Assembly: GCA_018398765.1 (NCBI GenBank)
Contig: JAHBMJ010002130.1
Span: 1-22,353 of the forward strand
Reading direction: 5' to 3'
DNA: 22,353 nucleotides
Source: Chromera velia
Lineage: Eukaryota; Sar; Chromeraceae
The translations under genes were made by a program, and so were the position numbers. Shown here piece by piece: positions 5,970 through 16,110 of this stretch (positions are counted from its first letter, which is position 1; every line of letters starts with the position of its first letter). The notes beneath the pieces were generated by a model. That model was not told where the DNA came from. It saw nothing but the letters and a program-made list of their open reading frames with translations, and made no database searches.

Positions 5970-6053
5970 GTACACTGTACTACACTGTACTACACTGTAC
6001 TATACTGTACTACTGTACTATGACATCTATACTGTACTGTACTACTGTACTAG
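5970..6053. repeat. GTACT/ACTGTACT minisatellite
   Basis: About eight imperfect copies of (AC)ACTGTACT. A shorter related tract lies at 6769-6817. Confidence 0.9.
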
Positions 6054-6203
6054 ACTTTTAAAAAAAAATTCTTCTATTTCTAGCATCCTAAGGGGTCTCT
6101 TAACGTACGTTAATGCTCTATCAACGTGTACTACGTTATAATATGGTAATGATGAATTACAGTAACTTAGAGAAAGCGTCCAAAAGAATTGAAACTATAT
6201 GTT

Positions 6204-6206
<3 letters not shown>

Positions 6207-6237
<31 letters not shown>
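6207..6237. repeat. (TA)n tract with inverted flanks
   Basis: About 15 TA units, flanked by ATGTTATACAT on the left and ATGTAACAT on the right, so the whole tract is near-palindromic. Confidence 0.9.
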
Positions 6238-6240
<3 letters not shown>

Positions 6241-6386
6241 ACATAAATTCACATAGCATCATTACCCAAAATCTGTGTTTCTCTTCTGTGGTGCCCGGCG
6301 TTCCTCTAATGATTCACAGAACCCTCTGGAGGTAGAAGTTGGGGGAGGTTGGCATGTATGGTGACCAGTAAGTTCTAGTGCGGCTA

Positions 6387-6560
6387 GGTGAGACGGTTTC
6401 TCTTTTCAGAGTAAACCTGGTCATAGAGAGAGAACTCCTGCTCCGAAACCCCCGCCGCGTTGGCGGCCTGAAAGACCTCCGTGGCGAGGGCGGCGTTCTT
6501 AGGGGCTGCTTCTACAAGGGCGTCCCGGCGCTACCAGGAGAGGTTGTCCACCTTGTCGTC
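6387..6560 (-). CDS. Candidate minus-strand exon, unknown protein
   Basis: The minus strand reads D-D-K-V-D-N-L-S-W, then TAG (6533-6531), then 48 codons with motifs A-L-V-E-A-A-P-K-N-A-A-L and A-G-V-S-E-Q-E-F-S-L-Y-D-Q. It ends at TAG 6386-6384. The makeup is strongly protein-like, while the overlapping plus-strand frame has no ATG. The TAG may be the end of an intron (CCTCTCCTGGTAG is acceptor-like), so the exon could be 6530-6387 or shorter, with a donor at CAG|GTTTAC. No family is recognised, and it may be a relic. The neighbouring mobile region starts about 320 bases away. Confidence 0.4.
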
Positions 6561-6589
6561 TGATGATATACAGTTAAGCTAAAGAGGGG

Positions 6590-6666
6590 GCGTCACAGCC
6601 TGTACTGCTTTGCACCATTCCGACGTCATCTACAAGGACATCATTGCTCTGGATTTCCTCCGCCCC
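6590..6666 (-). CDS. Candidate upstream exon of the 6.4 kb minus-strand gene
   Basis: The minus strand reads E-E-I-Q-S-N-D-V-L-V-D-D-V-G-M-V-Q-S-S. A branch-point-like CTTAAC and a CATCAG acceptor lie between it and the 6560 block, and the two blocks are in different frames, so an intron is needed to join them. The boundaries are guesses. Confidence 0.3.
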
Positions 6667-6721
6667 TCAACTTTAAAACTTAGCTTAAAAGCTTATAAAA
6701 AGGTAGTGGGACGAGTAGTGG

Positions 6722-6763
6722 GCGGCCCTGCCTAACTTAATGAGGCAGGGTGGGGCGGGCCGC
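6722..6763. repeat. GC-rich hairpin
   Basis: GCGGCCCTGCCT and a right arm containing AGGCAGGG and GGGCCGC can pair around the loop AACTTAATG, with a small bulge. There is no poly-T run after it. Confidence 0.55.
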
Positions 6764-6768
6764 TCGAA

Positions 6769-6817
6769 TTGTACTGTACTGTACTAGTTTTGCTTCTACA
6801 CTGTATTGTACTAGTGC
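6769..6817. repeat. Second GTACT minisatellite tract
   Basis: Copies of TGTACT related to the tract at 5970-6053. Confidence 0.75.
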
Positions 6818-7152
6818 AACTATGCCTATTATCGGCCGATGCCGAGGGCATATGATAATGATGATCTCGTACTTACTGCCAAGGCTGTATAATCAAAATT
6901 GATTAAATATAATCACTTTTCTCAGAAGTTGATTGATTATGATTAAATATTTTGATTATTTTTCTATTCTAAAAATATGATTCTTAGTAGTCTTTAATAT
7001 GTGTTTTGAAGACAATTGATACAAATTACAAAGCGATTTTGTGTTGAAGTCATAATTATTGGTCTATACAAGTACCTAGTTTCAGTAGAGAAGAGGGGGC
7101 AGGGAAAGGTAATCAGAAGAAGCAGAGGGATACCACTCCCCTCCCCCCGTCT

Positions 7153-7989
7153 ATGCGAGTCCCTCTTCAGTGCCCCGTCTCTCGCCGCTGGTCCTCCGTC
7201 GCCCATCTCCGTCCGCCAGTCCCCCCTCCCTCACAAGAACGTCCCGCACACCTTGAGACCAACGCGTTGCAACGCTCATTTTTGTGGATGAGTAAAAAGA
7301 TTGGACACCGTGCCCCCAACACAAAAAAGCAGGAAAAAGCGAAGAGGGCACAGTCCAGGTGCGTCGGTCACCCCATGAACAGGCATTTTTCCTCTTCTCC
7401 TTCTCGCCATGAGTGTGTGAATCTTCTCGGCAAGACAGCTCCACTCTTTGACCCCTTTAACATGCCAATCCCTTCAGCCCCTCCTCTTTCCTCCCTTTTG
7501 CATCACTCCCTTTCTTCATAATCTCCTGACGCTTGCTTTTCCGCCTTGACTCCTTCGAAAACCCCTCCGCTCACTTTTTCCTCCCTCACTTTCTCTGATA
7601 ACCTGACCACTCATACGTTTGCTCCCTGTGTTGGGCTTGCGGCCCCTTTACTCCCTTCGCTTGCATGCGCATCTCTGCCCACTGGGGTGGTGTGCAGAAA
7701 TAGATGGTCTGTGCTGGGGGAGGAAGAAGAGGAAGATAAGAGTACCAACGTGAGTAGCCAGTCTATTCAGTCTTCTCCTCACGTTTTTCTCCATCCATCG
7801 TCTCTCCCCCCACTTAGCTCCTACCCCCCCGCATGGGGCTCTCGTCCGGTTTGGCATGGTTTACCTTCTCTCCTTTCCTCTCCTCTTCCTCATTCTCCAG
7901 TCAAAGAATGCATTCTGCTCTCCTCTGTGATTCCTCCCTCTGGCTTCATCCCGATAAGTGGTTAGGACGGTCTGGGGTTCAAAAGTGAG
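7153..7989 (+). other. 5' region of the LINE, open in the ORF1 frame except for TAA and TAG
   Basis: This Pro/Ser-rich stretch is in the same frame as ORF1 and has only two stops, TAA at 7519-7521 and TAG at 7963-7965, and no TGA. It could be 5' UTR or, if those stops are decayed Gln codons, an N-terminal extension of ORF1 starting at ATG 7153. Confidence 0.45.
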
Positions 7990-9264
7990 ATGACAAGGAA
8001 AAAGGCAGCGAGGAGGAACAGATGGGCAAAAGATAGAAAAAAAGAAGCAAGAAGAGAATTAAGAAGGGCAAAGGGACAGGTGATTTCTGATAGTGCACTG
8101 AATACAGAATGTTTGGCTTCCCCCTCCCCTTCTTCCTCTCCTTCTCTCTCTCAATCTAGCCCGGGTCCTTTCCCTACCATCTCTTGTTTGTCTTCAGATT
8201 CATGTTCTTTTCCTTCCCCCACCATACCCTCTCCAGCTCACTCTCTCTCGCTTCTTCTCCCCCCCCCTATGAACCGTACGTATTTGCTGAATAATACATC
8301 CTTTCCATGTGTTCCTCCGTGCCTCTCTCTCCCTGTTGCCTCTCAGTCCGATTTTGCTATTCCTGCTCCTCCTCTACCTGCCTCACTTCCATTTCCCCTC
8401 ACTCCACCTCCAGTGGCACCCTCTCCTTTTTGCTTGTCCCTGTCCTCTCTGCCTATTGTTCAAGCGGCCTGCGGACCAAGCTACGGTGTTCCTCTTGGTG
8501 CTTCTTTCTTCTCCTCAGCTTCCCCTCTCCCTCTCCCTCCGCCCATCTGTTCTCGTTCTGTTTTTTCTTTCCTACCCCCCCCGCAGAGAGAATGTGGAAA
8601 GGGGGAGCAGCAGTTGAACAGTCAGGCCTCAGGTAGCAAATTGGGGGATGGGGAGAAAAGTAAACAAAGAAAGAGATATGATGCAAAGGAGAGAAATGAA
8701 AAGAAAGAGAAAGGCAAGGAAAAGCCCAACAAGCAGGGCCGCAACAGAAAGGGGGGGAATGAAGGGAGATGTTGTAACTGCAAGGCCTCTGTAGGCGGAT
8801 GTCACTTGTCATCCAGATGCTCATGCGCTAGAGGGTCAGAATCTCTCCCAGCAAGACCCTGTGTCAATTGCGACTGTCTCAAAAAGGGGTGCTGCAATAA
8901 CCCCCTAAATGGAAAGAGTCTCAAATCTGCCCCTCGACGGGAGCTGCGTGAAGACAGACAATAAGAAAGAGAACGCCGTAGGAGGAGACATGAGCATGAT
9001 TTTCTGTCCTCGCCTTCCCCCTCTTCTTCTTCTTCTGTCTCTGATTCTTCCTTCTCTTCTTCTAGATCTTTTGATGACAGGGACGAGGAGGACCGAGCCC
9101 TCATTCATGGAGGCTCATGCTCTTCTACAAGAATTCGTGCAGTGAGGGACGGAAAGGGAAAGAGAAGAGAATATGATTTTTGGAGGAGGGGCGCTTCCGA
9201 CTTCGCATGGATAAGCGCAGATCAACTAAAAAAAGACGAGAAGCGTCTGGTGTATGCTTTCTAG
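7990..9264 (+). CDS. LINE ORF1 protein, basic N-terminus and CXC-like Cys cluster
   Basis: It probably binds element RNA, as ORF1 proteins do. The ATG at 7990 is followed by a strongly basic segment (residues 2-35). Next come a long Ser/Pro/Leu-rich low-complexity middle (about 40-210), a Lys/Glu-rich charged part (about 215-255), and 11 Cys at residues 261-302 spaced as C-x-C-K...G-C...R-C-S-C...P-C-x2-C-x-C...C-C-N-N. That layout resembles the CXC module of tesmin/TSO1-type proteins and of some transposon proteins. A TAA at 8962-8964 closes the frame after 324 codons. The same frame then stays open and protein-like for 99 more codons (Arg-rich, Ser-rich, then F-A-W-I-S-A-D-Q-L-K-K) to TAG at 9262-9264. 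So either the protein ends at 8964, or the TAA is a mutated or recoded Gln codon. Confidence 0.7.
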
Positions 9265-9347
9265 GCCGGTCGCAGGGAAGCATGCAGACTCAGAAAGTGT
9301 AAAGACATGCAGGTTCTCCTTCCCACCTTCCTCTCCCTCCAGTTGCA

Positions 9348-9500
9348 GTGTCGTCGTCCTCCTCCTCCTCCTCTTCTCCTTCTTCCTCATCCTCCTCCTC
9401 CTCCTCCTCTTCTTCTTCTTCTTCTTCTTCTTCTTCTGTTTCTTTTTCTTCTTCCTCTTCTGCTTCGGCTTCTGCATGTGCTTCTGCTTCTGCCCCACCG
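9348..9500. repeat. (TCC/TTC)n microsatellite inside ORF2
   Basis: Pyrimidine trinucleotide repeats. In the ORF2 frame they encode a run of about 45 Ser with a few Pro, Val, Phe, Ala and Cys, just before the endonuclease domain. The other frames give poly-Pro/Leu or poly-Phe, and the minus strand gives poly-Glu or Lys/Arg. Confidence 0.85.
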
Positions 9501-11792
9501 GTGCGCCTCTCCACAACCTCTTCAATCCCTCAATGGGTCTTTCAGCCGTCCCCCCCCTCCCTTCTCTTTCCTTCTGCATCCTCATCCTCCCACAATGTTT
9601 TCTCTCCTTCTTACGACATGAGGTCTGGTCTCATGGCTTCAGGAAGAAGGAAATTCACAATAAAAACGGTAAATGTGGGGGGGCTGGGGTCACGCATACG
9701 AAGCAAGGCTCTCGAGCGGTGGCTGGCCGCTTGCCAGGCAGACATTGTGGTGTTGACTGAAACGAAGTGCCCCTCCATGCCCGTAAGAACATCCACTCAT
9801 ACAGGGCATAATTTCGATCACTTTGAGTGGTTAAGAAGGAAAATTAAAGCGGAAGGGTCGAGAAAAAAAGCCACAACTATTGGGGAAGCAAGGATAGGGG
9901 GTGTAGGCATCCTAGTCAAGAATTCTTTAGTTCATAAACTGTAGCCAAGGTGGGAGCTGGTGGGTCAAAATCTGGTCCATCTGTCAGTGAATGTGCCTTC
10001 TCCCTCAGAAGGAGGGGAGTCAGCCATGAGAGTCCTCAATGTTTTCGGTGTGTACTTTCTACCTAGAGGGTCTGACTTAAGAGAGAGAGACAGGGAGCTA
10101 AGAGCCAGAGAGAGAGAGGGCATGATCGATGCACTATGTCAGGTACTTCTCGAGGATCTGCGTATCCTGGTTGGGGACATGAACGGCAAGCTGGGGACTC
10201 AGGTGCCGGAAGGGCTGACTTGGGAAAGAATGCTATGTCCCACTGATGAAAGCAGAAAAGAGAACGAAGTTGATGCTTGCAAGCCCTCTCGATTGTCAGC
10301 CTGCAGCCATAGCAGTCAACCTGATGAGCAAGGGAATTGGCTGATCCGTCTTTGTGAACGCTCTGACTTAATTCCTTTCCACGGCCTATCCTTAAAATGT
10401 GAGAGGCTGGGTGTTGATGTCTCCTTTCTGGGCCCGTGCGACTTTTTTAAAGCAGGAGAAGAAACAATAGCAATTGATCACTTTTTTGTAGGTCTTTTTT
10501 TTTTAACAGCCTAGTCCTCTGCCACTTCAAACCTGGAAGCTGACTTTGCCCCTCAATATGTTGTTCTTTCTCTTTCTTTTTTTCTTGATTCATCTCCTCT
10601 CCCTATGTCTTCTGATCCTCCGCATGCCCCCATGGGTAAAACGAATTTTTCTTTTCTCCCCCCTCTTCTCACTATTAATAGAACTTCCCCGGTGACTGAT
10701 GACGAAATAATTCCTCTCACCAGAGCGGTCCTACCATTTTCTGAGACGGTTTTTCCCAGCCTGTTCGACAGAAAGGTAAACGAACTGCGTGAAAGAGGTC
10801 AAGTTGTTCCCCCTATCCTACCTCCCCCTGACCCTCCACCCCTTCCCCCACAACCACCTCCCCCTCAGAATGCCCCCCCCCCCAACTCTCTTAGCAAGGC
10901 TTCTTATCTTGACCAATTGGAACAGTTGGGTCTTTCCTGGGAAGAAAGGCTGGCAGATAGCAAAGTGGGTGCAGTAGTAGACGGGGGAAAGGCATCCAAG
11001 AAGAGAAGACAGTCTGGGAGAAAGCAGAGCACCCGTTAGGCTTGGTGGGACCCACAATGCCGCCTGATTCATTTGAAGGTGAAGGAGGCAGAGGAAAAGG
11101 CAAGACATGTCCCGAACCCTTCTCACCCTTTGCAAAAAGAATGTATCAAACAGAGAAGAGAAAGAGCTCGACTGTTCGCAGCAAAAAGGAGTAAGCTCGA
11201 GCAACAGACAGCAGAGAGACTAGCTAGAGAAGCAGCAGTTGACCCCTTGAAAGTTTGGTAATGGAACAGGAAAATCAAAACACAGAGGGGAGGGGATAAT
11301 AAACCTGCTGCATCTTCCTTCACTCAGTTCTGGGCTAGGGTCTTCGACGGTCCTGGTCTTCCGCCTGCACCTGTTGGTCTGGCCTTCCCCCCTCCTTCTT
11401 AGCCCGCCTTCTCTATACACATGATTGAGGAAACACTGAAAAAAATTGACCCAAAGAAAGCGTTAAGTTTAGATGGGGTTGGCCCCTGTCACCTCTCGTT
11501 ATGTTTTGGTTTTTCTCCTCTCTCCCACTTGCTGTTCTTTGTCTTTTTCAATTTGTTTCACCTTTTTTCTTTTTGGCCTGAACGCTGGAATGTGTTGCGC
11601 ATTGCTCCCGTCTTCAAGGGCCCGCCGAGTCTCGACTGTAATAAATGGCGCCCGATCCACATTGTGGGGCTTCTGGGTAAGATTTTTGCTTTATTGATGG
11701 ACTCAAAGATCAGGAAAGAGGTGAAAATTGACGAAAGACAGCTCGGCTTCAGATAAAAGGTAGGGACAAGGGAGGCCTTCGCTGCTCTGTCT

Positions 11793-13499
11793 TTGTTAAT
11801 TTTCAGCTCCAAAAAGAAGAAGAGCCCTCTGATTGCCACGTTTGTTGATTTTAGCAAGGCGTTTGATACACTTCCTCGGGTCAAAATGTCAGAGAGGCTC
11901 AGGGAGGAAGAAGTAAGCCAAGCCGATGTTTGGATGATTCATTCGATGTATAGTCAGGTGAAGGCTCGGGTGGATGGGGCAACAGAATGCTTTCCAGAAG
12001 GCGGAGGAATAAAACAAGGCGATCCTCTCTCTCCTCTCCTCTTTCTTCTTTTCATTAACAATCTGCATAAATCTGTCAGCTCCGATAGTGAAAACAGGAA
12101 TCAAAGCTCGGCTGGGGATACTGATAGAGAGACTCCTGTCAGACTGTCTGACGTTTTAATCGAAAGCATCGGGTATGCTGATGACCTTGTTCTGTTTGCC
12201 CACTGTGCTTCAGACTTACAGAAACGTCTGTCTCGCCTCGAGGACTATTGTAAGGAGCACGGCCTGAAGTTGAATTTAAAAAAGATAAAAGTTATGCGTC
12301 TCTCCTCCCCCCACCCCAACCTAGTGCCCCGGACCCCTTTTCTTTATGAAGGCAGACCAGTGAAAGCGGTGAGTAAATATAAATATTTGGGCAACTGGGT
12401 TTTTAAGGGCGGGGACCTTAGTAAGACAGTCGAAGCCCGCATTGAGGCGGCAGAGAAGGCACTGAGGGCTGTGTTTGGTACTCTCTCTTCTTTGGGCTTT
12501 GTTTCTTCCTTTTTTAAAATTACTTTGTTCAAGGCCCTCTGGCTGCCAATTGTGCTGTATGGACTGGAAACGATCCCACTGAGAAAGACAGATGTTGCCT
12601 GCCTCGATGCTTTACAGTTGTGTTTTGTTCAATATTGTTTTGGTCTCTGTTATCACTCCTTTGTTTCGCCTTCCCTTCTTTCTCTCTCTCTTGAGCCATT
12701 CAGTTCTCTACTTAGTAAGTTGAGTGGGGGCTTCATCCAATGCATCAAATCGATCGACCGTGCTCTACCCTGGGCAGTGTGGAATGAGTGCTTGGCTAGT
12801 TTGTGCGAACCCTTCGTTAAAACAGTAAAATGGCTGGCCGTTCCATTAGATTGCTGCCTTTTGTGGCCTCCATTGCCAAGCATGGTGGGGGATAAGTTTA
12901 AAAGGAAGGGCAAGGGCAGAAGGAAAAGGGCGGTGAAAAAGATTGTGAAGGGTGCCTGGCTGTCCAACTGGTTGAAAGAAGAAACTAGAAACCTTAGAGA
13001 CAGAGACGGAATTTTCCCCCGCCTTACGAATCTCTCCCCTTTCCAGTCAGAGAATCCGACCAGACAGCGTTTGGCCATGCACCTTCTGTATGAAAGGAAA
13101 TGGCGTCCGAGAAGTGAAATAATAGAGTGCAGTATTGAACCTTTGCCAAAGAGTCTGCTGCAGTTGTCTGCAGGCTTCCATACACTTTTCAGGGCTCTCA
13201 CAGGGGGGGATATAGATAGAACCCAACCAGAACGGCTGTGCAATAAATGTTTGTCCCCCTCGCGTATGATCAAAGATGAGGTTCATGTCCTGACGGAGTG
13301 TAAGGACACAGAAAAGGAATGGAACAGACTGAAAGAACTGTACGAAATTGCGAAGCAGAGAGCGCCCATTGACATAAGAATACAGATTGCACAACGCGTT
13401 GCAGGTACAACCGGGAAGGGCACTTCTGATAATGAGAAGAAAATGAAGGATATGGTGTTGCTGTTGTGCACAATCCTAGAAGCGGTTCCAAAGCTATAG
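11793..13499 (+). CDS. Intact reverse transcriptase segment of ORF2
   Basis: The longest stop-free piece of ORF2. Motif A starts about 18 codons in. Motif B, Y-A-D-D, the thumb and the C-terminal CCHC finger (L-C-N-K-C...D-E-V-H-V-L-T-E-C) follow in order and are all complete. The fingers (motifs 0-2, W-R-P-I-H-I-V) lie upstream, across TAA 11754-11756. The codon that TAA replaces sits between G-F-R and K-V-G-T-R-E-A; related elements have exactly one residue there, so the frame and length are conserved. Confidence 0.8.
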   Translation: MLIFSSKKKKSPLIATFVDFSKAFDTLPRVKMSERLREEEVSQADVWMIHSMYSQVKARVDGATECFPEGGGIKQGDPLSPLLFLLFINNLHKSVSSDSENRNQSSAGDTDRETPVRLSDVLIESIGYADDLVLFAHCASDLQKRLSRLEDYCKEHGLKLNLKKIKVMRLSSPHPNLVPRTPFLYEGRPVKAVSKYKYLGNWVFKGGDLSKTVEARIEAAEKALRAVFGTLSSLGFVSSFFKITLFKALWLPIVLYGLETIPLRKTDVACLDALQLCFVQYCFGLCYHSFVSPSLLSLSLEPFSSLLSKLSGGFIQCIKSIDRALPWAVWNECLASLCEPFVKTVKWLAVPLDCCLLWPPLPSMVGDKFKRKGKGRRKRAVKKIVKGAWLSNWLKEETRNLRDRDGIFPRLTNLSPFQSENPTRQRLAMHLLYERKWRPRSEIIECSIEPLPKSLLQLSAGFHTLFRALTGGDIDRTQPERLCNKCLSPSRMIKDEVHVLTECKDTEKEWNRLKELYEIAKQRAPIDIRIQIAQRVAGTTGKGTSDNEKKMKDMVLLLCTILEAVPKL

Positions 13500-13689
13500 C
13501 CGACTGTCTCAAGAAGGTCCATTCTGTCGATAAGGCAAGTTGAGGCGAATCAATCCGACTGGCATGCAGGCTTCCTCAACCCCCCCCCCATGAATGTGTG
13601 CTCTGGGTTGTCCTCAAAGCCTTGTTAGTGGCTTGGGATTTAGTGTTGCTAAATCTAGGATTTAACCCTCAATCATCATCATCATCATA

Positions 13690-13988
13690 TCAGTGCGATA
13701 ACTCAATAATAATTATTTTTAATTATCCAAAACTAGTAATAAATAACAATAATTATGGAAAACCTCAACTTTATGGTCTTTACTATAAGATTTTATCAGA
13801 TTTATGAGGTGTTTTTATATGAAAAACGAATCAAAGTTCTTAAAATAATGTGTTTTAAAACTTTGATGAACCTCTCTGGGGCTTGTGAAACGTATTTTTG
13901 TTTATGATCCAAATAATTATTATTTTTTAAATAGTGAATATATAAATCAATAATTATTATTGAAATAGGGTTTGAGTTATCTCACTGA
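13690..13988. mobile_element. Tc1/mariner-like MITE, 299 bp
   Basis: Terminal inverted repeats TCAGTGCGATAACTCAA (13690-13706) and the reverse complement of TTGAGTTATCTCACTGA (13972-13988) differ at one position. TA flanks both ends (13688-13689 and 13989-13990), the target duplication of the Tc1/mariner superfamily. It has no coding capacity, and the interior is AT-rich with a second hairpin (13830-13845 with 13853-13867). It lies directly against the (ATC)n tail of the LINE. Confidence 0.7.
13830..13867. repeat. Internal hairpin of the MITE
   Basis: ATCAAAGTTCTTAAAA pairs with TTTTAAAACTTTGAT except near one position, around a 7-base loop. Confidence 0.65.
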
Positions 13989-14278
13989 TATAATTTCATA
14001 ACTTTCACTGGTACATAATTTTGTACTTATACGTACATCTTGTTTATCTTTACTCAAACCTAGAGTTACTTTATCCAAACTTCTATATTGCTTTCACTGA
14101 GTGTTCTAGCGAATTCAACCTTGTTTTCATCACTGAAAACAAACTTCTATAGGGTCTATTTCCTTTTAGCATAGCACTCAATATATTTAGTGATTATATC
14201 GTGATTATGGGACTTTGAAAGTGATTAATTATGAATAAATATATTTTTTGATTATACAGACTGAGCGTGCTGCGGAGT

Positions 14279-15010
14279 CTTATTCGTAGAAGACGTGACT
14301 GACATCGCAGCTTCTACTTGTATAAGCTGATAACATCTTCAGAGCCTGACTACCTCACATGATTAACATATATTTGTATTGCTTGCTGGCTAGTATATAG
14401 TATAACTAGCATATTCAGATATACCATCCACATATATTAGTTGCCAATCTTCCTAACTAGTGTACTTGACCTCTACCAATCGATGCTAGAATTGACTGCT
14501 AACTTCTATAACCCTAGCTAGGTTAACACCTTATAAAAGTCTTGCTTGTAGATCTAGTTAGCTTCTCCTTACCGCGAGGCTATATATGGGTGTTAACCTT
14601 ACTGACCGATGCTAGGATTGATTGTTAACCTCTATTAGCCTAGGTTAACACCTTATGAAAGTTTTGCTTGCAGATCTAGCTAGCTCTTCCTTACCGTGAG
14701 GCTATGTACGGGTGTTAACCTTACCAACCGATGCAAAGATTGATCGCTAACCTCTACCAGCTAAAGACGCCATATACAGAGGCCCTGGGTTGGAGGTATA
14801 CTTGCCTGACAATGTCTAAGATACATGACACGTCATTTGGTGATTCTGAAGAGATGCAGGAGTGTCAGTGAGTTGATCCTCAGCTATCACTACGTATATT
14901 GAGGGAGTTGCGAAGTTTTACTGGAAGACTTAGTGGAAAAAAGACATGACTGAGTCAAACTGACATCGTAACTTCTACCTGCATAGGCTAATAACATCTT
15001 GACAGCATCA
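14279..15010. repeat. Two dispersed direct repeats, about 65 bp
   Basis: The segment near 14279-14342 (GACTGACATCGCAGCTTCTA, then AACATCTTC) recurs near 14923-15002 with about 80 percent similarity and small gaps. The 125-bp tandem repeat lies between them. There is no coding. Confidence 0.6.
14481..14760. repeat. Tandem repeat, unit 122-126 bp, about 2.3 copies
   Basis: Copies start at 14481, 14607 and 14729 with CGATGC and share TTAACACCTTAT, GCTTG, AGATCTAG and GGTGTTAACCTTAC. They differ mostly by transitions. GGTTAACACC and GGTGTTAACC also make each unit internally inverted. Confidence 0.8.
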
Positions 15011-15300
15011 ACACGTAGAAGCTAACACTACATGTTAGCATAAACACATAGAAGCTAGCATTAAATGCTGATATAGACGCGTAGAAGCTAGTATTAAGTG
15101 CTGACATAGACGTGTATTAGCTGGTACTAAGTGTTGGCATAGAGATGATAGTTAGAGATGTCAGTTGCTAGTCACGTAGTAGCAGCACCAAGTGTTGGCA
15201 TAGACATGTCAGTTACATGTCAATTGCTAGCATTAAATGCTAATATAAACGTACGTGTAAAAGCTAGCACTAAGTGCTGACATAGACATGTAGAAGCTAT
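15010..15300. repeat. Diverged tandem repeat, unit about 33 bp
   Basis: Five to eight decayed copies of TAGAAGCTAGCATTAAGTGC followed by TGACATAGAC. The first copy contains GCTAACA...TGTTAGC, an inverted pair. There is no coding. Confidence 0.75.
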
Positions 15301-16110
15301 ACCTGAAAAAAAAATTTATATTACTAATACAACGAACTTCTTCACTTCAAAACAGATAGTTAATTCACTAAAAGTCAACAACGCGGCAGAAAGAACTTTT
15401 GAGCACCAGACGCAGAGGTAAAAAGAATAAAAACGGGAACAGGGGGGGTACCATGAGAGAGACGGTGAATTATTGCACACTAATTGTTATACACTTTTGT
15501 GTGTAACAAGGGGGGGTCAGGGGTAATTGTTACATATTTAACTTTATATAACATGGTATTAACATCACAGAATTGGTGTAGGCACTGTAGTTCACTTCCT
15601 TTGAATGCTATTAGATACTATTGGATACACGATCTGCGCGTGACGGCACGCCCTGGCATTCTAAATAGACTTAGATCTGCATGCATAAAGGGCCTATGCG
15701 GGCCTGGCCTATGCCTCCCTTTATGCTTTAAGACCTAGTTCAACAAGCCAACCGCTCTCTACAGACTACAGCTCTTTCTCCCCCATTTTTTTCTTTATAA
15801 AAGCCTATAAATACTTTAAAATTTGGTCGGTATCGAAAGCATCGAAACGGTATATCAAAAATCTTGGTTTGGTCCGATTTTTGCGGTCGATTCCAATACG
15901 GCGATACCTGATACCTCTTAAATACCAATACTTAACAACTCTGGAATGTTGATAATGAATGCATTCTACTATCATAATTCTAGTTTAGTCCGATGCAATA
16001 CACTAGCCTAGACACTGGCATGATTTGGTACAGTGAACACAAATTGAAGTTATTTAGTGAAAATCTATTGTAAGACCATTCTTTTAGTACGGATTGTACT
16101 AGGGATTGTA
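15301..16110. other. Intergenic, no gene seen
   Basis: AT-rich with two hairpins: 15486-15511 (arms TTGTTATACAC and GTGTGTAACAA, one mismatch) and 15683-15726 (arms GCATAAAGGG and CCCTTTATGC, perfect). Small frames here lack splice support. Confidence 0.45.
15683..15726. repeat. Perfect 10-bp hairpin
   Basis: GCATAAAGGG and CCCTTTATGC flank a 24-base loop that itself contains two GGCCTATGC-like words. Confidence 0.6.

Follow-up and report, generated by a model that had tools for sequence, protein, structure and literature searches.

Does the photosynthetic alveolate Chromera velia read TAA and TAG as glutamine? The question is raised by a 22,353-nt stretch of its genome (contig JAHBMJ010002130.1 of assembly GCA_018398765.1; hereafter, the window), which carries a retrotransposon resembling long interspersed nuclear elements (LINEs) whose coding sequence is interrupted by TAA and TAG with no in-frame TGA. 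An initial annotation of the window had offered three explanations for this pattern: recoding of TAA and TAG (jointly, TAR) as glutamine, C-to-T decay of CAA and CAG codons in a methylated and fairly young element, or chance. Comparing the window copy with its sisters elsewhere in the genome, we find that it is very probably a dead copy in a genome that uses the standard code, and that copies of this element decay mostly by C-to-T changes, on either strand and in all contexts (CpG > CpA > CpT > CpC).

The element occupies the middle of the window:

7103..13692, + strand: LINE-like retrotransposon without long terminal repeats, window copy, encoding an endonuclease and a reverse transcriptase; multicopy, with the span aligned to sister copies

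In a domain scan of seven pieces, two were positive, for Exo_endo_phos (PF03372, E = 1.3e-06) and then RVT_1 (PF00078, E = 8.3e-21), with no domain match in the remaining five. Among proteins of known structure, the reverse transcriptase piece agreed best with R2 (4.5e-13) and more weakly with LINE-1 (1.6e-05). The window copy ends in an (ATC)n-like tail, and 5′-truncated copies are present among the sisters aligned to it. The element shares with LINEs bearing an apurinic/apyrimidinic (AP)-type endonuclease the order of endonuclease and reverse transcriptase, multicopy occurrence, 5′ truncation and a short-unit 3′ tail, but differs in a reverse transcriptase closer to R2 than to LINE-1 and in a family with one long frame rather than two open reading frames (ORFs).

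Searches of the assembly (177.8 Mb, 4040 contigs) returned at least 45 matches to a 598-nt piece of the element (best 40 of 136 candidates scored) and at least 41 to the reverse transcriptase piece (best 40 of 354 candidates scored). As sisters we took all distinct places, other than the window, matched by the 598-nt piece, leaving out as duplicates L001 (the window itself) and L002-L008 (the same copies as L009-L015). Each of the resulting 39 sisters was aligned to the window copy, giving 40 copies in all; ranking by likeness to the 598-nt piece means that older copies are under-represented.

Ten true nonsense codons interrupt the window copy, none of them TGA, and at these sites the sisters mostly carry CAA, CAG or TGG:

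7519..7521, + strand: nonsense TAA; sisters CAA 8/9, TAA 1
7963..7965, + strand: nonsense TAG; sisters TGG 11/12, TAG 1
8962..8964, + strand: nonsense TAA; sisters CAA 33/38, TAA 4, AAA 1
9262..9264, + strand: nonsense TAG; sisters TGG 34/39, TAG 3, TGA 2
9942..9944, + strand: nonsense TAG; sisters CAG 32/36, TAG 3, TGG 1
10512..10514, + strand: nonsense TAG; sisters TGG 31/35, TAG 4
11037..11039, + strand: nonsense TAG; sisters CAG 30/31, CAA 1
11259..11261, + strand: nonsense TAA; sisters CAA 31/31
11400..11402, + strand: nonsense TAG; sisters CAG 27/30, TAG 2, gapped 1
11754..11756, + strand: nonsense TAA; sisters CAG 22/29, TAG 3, CAA 2, gapped 2

Three of the ten sites thus encode tryptophan, not glutamine, in most sisters. 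All eleven stop codons quoted in the initial annotation are present where it placed them, and frame 3 is indeed free of TGA from 9300 to 13497; the TAG at 9262 had been overlooked. Where a few sisters share a stop (4/35 at 10512, 3/36 at 9942), the frequencies are close to what recurrent mutation at the 7% CpA rate would yield, and shared descent may contribute.

The sisters also redraw the reading frame, which had been described as two separate ORFs with no frameshift:

7153..9306, + strand: N-terminal part of the family's single frame (frame 1), previously ORF1; no family-fixed stop
9300..9302, + strand: TAA outside the coding frame; TGA in 38/39 sisters
9303..9306, + strand: frame-shifting deletion private to the window copy; sisters are longer here
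9307..13474, + strand: continuation of that frame (frame 3), encoding endonuclease and reverse transcriptase, previously ORF2; no family-fixed stop
13474..13475, + strand: 4-nt deletion private to the window copy by sister comparison, frame-shifting near the C-terminus
13497..13499, + strand: TAG ending the window copy's shifted frame; shared by 25/25 covering sisters, none of which holds it in frame
13541..13543, + strand: natural stop of the family (TGA in 24/25 covering sisters, TAA in 1), missed by the window copy's shifted frame

Near 9306, all 39 sisters carry extra bases (13 nt in 19 copies, 19 nt in 19 and 25 nt in one), and because each of these lengths equals 1 modulo 3, the frames of ORF1 and ORF2 are joined in the sisters; the joined stretch, 9253-9347, is stop-free in 30/39. 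At the other end, 4-5 additional nucleotides lie exactly at 13474 in 23 of the 25 covering sisters, and the frame runs to 13541 in 24 of them, terminating in TGA (23) or TAA (1). A private TGA comes earlier in one of these 24; the remaining sister, L033, carries a further indel. Two private deletions therefore split the family's single frame into two apparent ORFs and create a false final stop. The window copy holds two frameshifts, TGA is the family's own terminator, and neither 9300 nor 13497 is a codon of the family frame: the frame holding TAA 9300, previously counted as an internal stop of ORF2, has many family-fixed stops upstream. Three candidate features were consequently set aside, namely the two-ORF layout, which gives way to the one joined frame of the sisters; TAG 13497 as natural stop, past which the sisters read on to 13541; and a start of ORF2 at ATG 9254 in another frame, where the codon is GTG in 29/39 sisters and ATG in 8.

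Reading of TAA and TAG as glutamine throughout the nuclear genome would account for the window copy taken alone, whose two frames show TAA and TAG stops only, as in the nuclear codes that assign TAR to glutamine (NCBI table 6 and relatives). The family as a whole tells otherwise. A stop is the majority codon in none of the 2106 codon columns of the family frame, and its 63 glutamine columns are all CAA or CAG; at least one in-frame TGA occurs in 27 of the 40 copies, and sisters carry further private frameshifting indels.

Host genes likewise show no TAR bias. Across 115 matched rows of five host families, inner stops comprised 5 TAG, 1 TAA and 10 TGA: chaperonin contributed 37 rows, of which 3 contained stops (1 TAG, 2 TGA), its matches falling in pieces as from intron-containing genes; light-harvesting proteins 58 rows, 11 with stops (4 TAG, 8 TGA, no TAA); eRF1_1 5 rows, 1 with TAA; and IMCp (alveolin) and the C5-methyltransferase family 11 and 4 rows, respectively, with no internal stop. 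These inner stops may reflect introns or pseudogenes, and they do not lean toward TAR. The IMCp and light-harvesting families fit a chromerid host, and an 18S primer pattern matched nowhere. Among 14 named control bacteria and archaea, each of the two family searches also gave a match in one genome (Caulobacter vibrioides in one case, Synechococcus elongatus in the other), so that a few matches to either family would alone prove little about the host. Of two DNMT2-like host genes, one terminates at TAG and the other at TGA, the TAG presumably lying soon after the last conserved motif of that family. Finally, the TASNIKS motif of eRF1, which we take to be the standard-code form, is intact (EYGTASNIKSRVNRL in L053); recoding would predict an altered motif. 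Sister copies, host rows, two gene ends and the eRF1 motif together argue for the standard code in the nuclear genome, and we regard glutamine recoding as vanishingly improbable.

How, then, did the stops arise? Relative to a leave-one-out majority, and after dropping columns with fewer than six other copies or less than 75% agreement, the 40 copies carry 5959 substitutions, of which 4986 are C-to-T or G-to-A (2482 and 2504, respectively), against 220 T-to-C, 162 A-to-G and 591 transversions. The C-to-T excess appears in every copy examined and at all cytosine contexts. With strands pooled, rates were 9.5% at CpG (1056/11117), 7.3% at CpA (1649/22684), 3.7% at CpT (1076/28789) and 3.1% at CpC (839/27022), and CHG and CHH sites (H = A, C or T) were nearly alike (4.24% and 4.62%). 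Codon positions 1, 2 and 3 and sequence downstream of the frame changed at 4.99, 5.00, 5.53 and 5.09%. No sign of selection accompanies the decay, and the spectrum is apparently neutral.

Strand symmetry bears on one enzymatic origin for such changes, in which a deaminase of the APOBEC kind edits single-stranded cDNA during retrotransposition. Such editing would produce C-to-T changes, and along the copies C-to-T and G-to-A alternate somewhat less often than at random (2287 switches versus 2413 expected, z = -3.7). However, the two classes are equal overall and in each longer copy, the preceding base hardly matters (4.7-5.5%), and the 5% shortage of switches may stem from C-rich and G-rich stretches. 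We consider an APOBEC-like origin very unlikely.

The same spectrum accounts for the mix of stops. C-to-T decay converts CAA, CAG and TGG codons to TAA or TAG, and more rarely produces TGA from CGA and TGG. Over the single frame, the 40 copies hold 251 nonsense codons (132 TAG, 63 TAA, 56 TGA), a tally that includes codons of unresolved ancestry. From the context rates we expected 111.2 TAG, 39.9 TAA and 35.2 TGA between 9303 and 13497, and observed 101, 41 and 35; since these rates were derived from the very alignment being tested, the split among codons, rather than the total, is the test. TGA is rarer than TAG or TAA chiefly because TGG-to-TGA is a CpC change, the slow class (3.1%), whereas CAA- or CAG-to-TAR and, through the opposite strand, TGG-to-TAG are CpA changes, which are fast (7.3%); CGA codons, moreover, are scarce (9/2106 family codon columns). 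With TGA expected to make up 21% of new stops, a run of ten without it has a probability of about 0.09, in place of the roughly 0.04-0.02 estimated from equal stop chances, and its absence from the window copy does not clearly exceed what chance would give. The earlier objection that C-to-T decay should also have yielded TGA from CGA and TGG is answered by the sisters, in which it does. C-to-T decay of the element is thus strongly supported by the sister spectrum, and its attribution to a methylated, fairly young element is plausible.

What drives the decay? We think it reasonably likely that the element would be methylated at both CpG and non-CpG cytosines and would then lose them by deamination, in a process aimed at transposons rather than at the whole genome. 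The spectrum resembles 5-methylcytosine decay of transposons in its C-to-T changes on both strands, its fastest rate at CpG and its similarity across the three codon positions, and departs from it in a CpA rate near that of CpG (7.3 versus 9.5%), in CpT and CpC rates far above those of other changes, and in the enzymes recognised (below).

Several observations weigh against parts of this account. The stop mix fits more loosely upstream of the endonuclease, where 20.4 TAG, 12.0 TAA and 9.8 TGA were expected at 7966-9261 and 12, 13 and 9 observed, and 8.3, 1.6 and 2.7 expected at 7153-7965 and 11, 6 and 2 observed. C-to-T changes also keep less in step with other substitutions than a single clock would predict. 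Among the 30 longer copies (the 10 of 40 with ≤3500 usable columns and the microsatellite at 9300-9500 were left out), the C-to-T load ranged from 2.8 to 8.7% and correlated with other substitutions at rho 0.45, against a one-clock expectation of 0.76 (95% range 0.60-0.88), although subfamily differences inflate discordance and weaken this test; the ratio of C-to-T to other changes was heterogeneous (chi-square 74, 29 degrees of freedom), and single-copy changes alone gave rho 0.32 (p 0.09). A search for PF00145 methyltransferases returned four rows, of which three, from two genes, were closest to DNMT2, a type described as a tRNA methyltransferase (PMC9998398). Among the PF00145 matches inspected (these two genes, 3/4 rows), no DNMT1, DNMT3 or DNMT5 and no RID/DNMT4-like gene was recognised; the search works exon by exon, divergent enzymes may escape it, and the fourth, short match (C675) fell outside the inspected set. 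Lastly, transitions alone also separate the three copies of a host light-harvesting gene, which are 97.6-99.1% alike (4-11 differences over 459 sites) and vary mostly at third positions.

The two DNMT2-like genes, at L049:94-1974 and L048:306-2737, are diverged; the former is a single open frame of 626 codons and so exceeds in length the DNMT2 chains that it matches (327-348 residues).

The uneven loads could instead reflect an active repeat-directed process like fungal repeat-induced point mutation (RIP), in which bursts of C-to-T changes strike duplicated sequence, here in an alveolate alga. As in fungal RIP, the excess falls on repeated DNA, on both strands and in all contexts, CpA is the favoured target among non-CG sites, and TpA-rich stretches lie nearby: TpA/ApT reaches 1.20-1.24 in AT-rich 1-kb intervals starting at 6001, 14001 and 15001, compared with 0.24-0.88 in other host intervals. 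A tandem repeat within the window shows 22 transitions versus 3 transversions. The pattern nevertheless differs from fungal RIP in several respects. CpG is hit more than CpA (9.5 versus 7.3%), unlike the classic Neurospora pattern; loads are light, below 10%; transitions are not in excess in several further non-LINE repeat pairs; and no RID/DNMT4-like gene was recognised among the inspected matches. Moreover, 18 of the 22 pairwise differences among the light-harvesting gene copies fall at third positions, and all three pairs differ mainly there with no excess at positions 1 and 2; this duplicated gene is not visibly attacked. A host with light-harvesting and alveolin-like families is, besides, hardly a fungus. 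We regard an active RIP-like process as a bold and rather unlikely alternative.

The AT-rich stretches at 6001-7000 and 14001-16000 look like older decayed repeats. Their CpA+TpG index is low (0.91-1.02), unlike that of the remaining host DNA, and five further contigs carry diverged, partial copies of a 735-nt piece of the latter stretch (14466-15200).

A general C:G-to-T:A mutation bias of the genome, not directed at transposons, would explain why transitions also predominate elsewhere: in the window's tandem repeat, in a diverged 188-nt repeat elsewhere in the genome (24 transitions versus 5 transversions) and in the light-harvesting gene copies, which differ by transitions only. Other non-LINE repeat pairs, several of them imperfect palindromes, are mixed, with transition/transversion counts of 12/22, 17/9, 13/13, 12/13, 17/23, 19/6, 12/7, 9/4 and 1/1. 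A genome-wide bias is also hard to square with base composition. By arithmetic from the measured rates, the spectrum would bring GC content to about 9% at equilibrium, as against 47% in the window, where the two large host parts stand at 47 and 51% and the AT-rich stretches at 30-42%; the C-to-T spectrum is thus unlikely to operate genome-wide, an argument that assumes equilibrium. We judge a general bias improbable, and methylation of the element followed by deamination would remain the favoured explanation for its decay.

The sister alignment also revealed structure within the family. Two 5′ types exist: in 14 sisters, similarity to the window copy covers the 3′ part and begins at window position 8353. 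Upstream of it, an alternative stretch of at least ~570 nt is mutually similar among L024, L025, L027, L028, L030, L031, L033, L034, L038, L039, L040, L042, L043 and L045, with a shorter version in L018, L036, L041 and L044. Insertions of ~1.1 kb (L014), 0.8 kb (L037) and 0.47 kb (L036) lie within copies, and others are rearranged, with an inverted piece in L040 and scattered pieces in L041. We compared the ends of the window copy and eight sisters, one of which, L023, has only 19 nt of upstream flank. No target-site duplication was found in the window copy or six sisters, L023 among them (ends of up to 530 nt compared; short ones would escape), and L015, which has no upstream flank, gave short A/G-rich matches only. 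The copy in L032 is flanked by a direct repeat of 170-189 nt, ~98.9% alike (L032:92-261 and L032:6569-6738), which contains the element tail and is accordingly not a clean target-site duplication; it looks more like the product of a nested or tandem event.

Collectively, our results show that the claim of a new genetic code in Chromera does not stand, and stating so averts a false lead. What remains is a measurable and clear all-context C-to-T spectrum from 40 copies in a chromerid alga, for which non-CG methylation or a RIP-like process is a possible cause. The decay pattern hints that transposons in this alga are marked chemically, or mutated, by their host. More speculatively, and in our estimation unlikely, it may represent a RIP-like transposon defence outside fungi, in which cytosines of repeats would be deaminated in all contexts in a photosynthetic alveolate, possibly via DNMT2-type enzymes, which become candidates as the sole kind of cytosine methyltransferase recognised in the inspected matches; a literature search pairing Chromera with 'repeat-induced point mutation' returned no paper, a negative limited to this pairing. 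Whichever process is at work, the genome offers many young copies of one element in which C-to-T decay can be studied.

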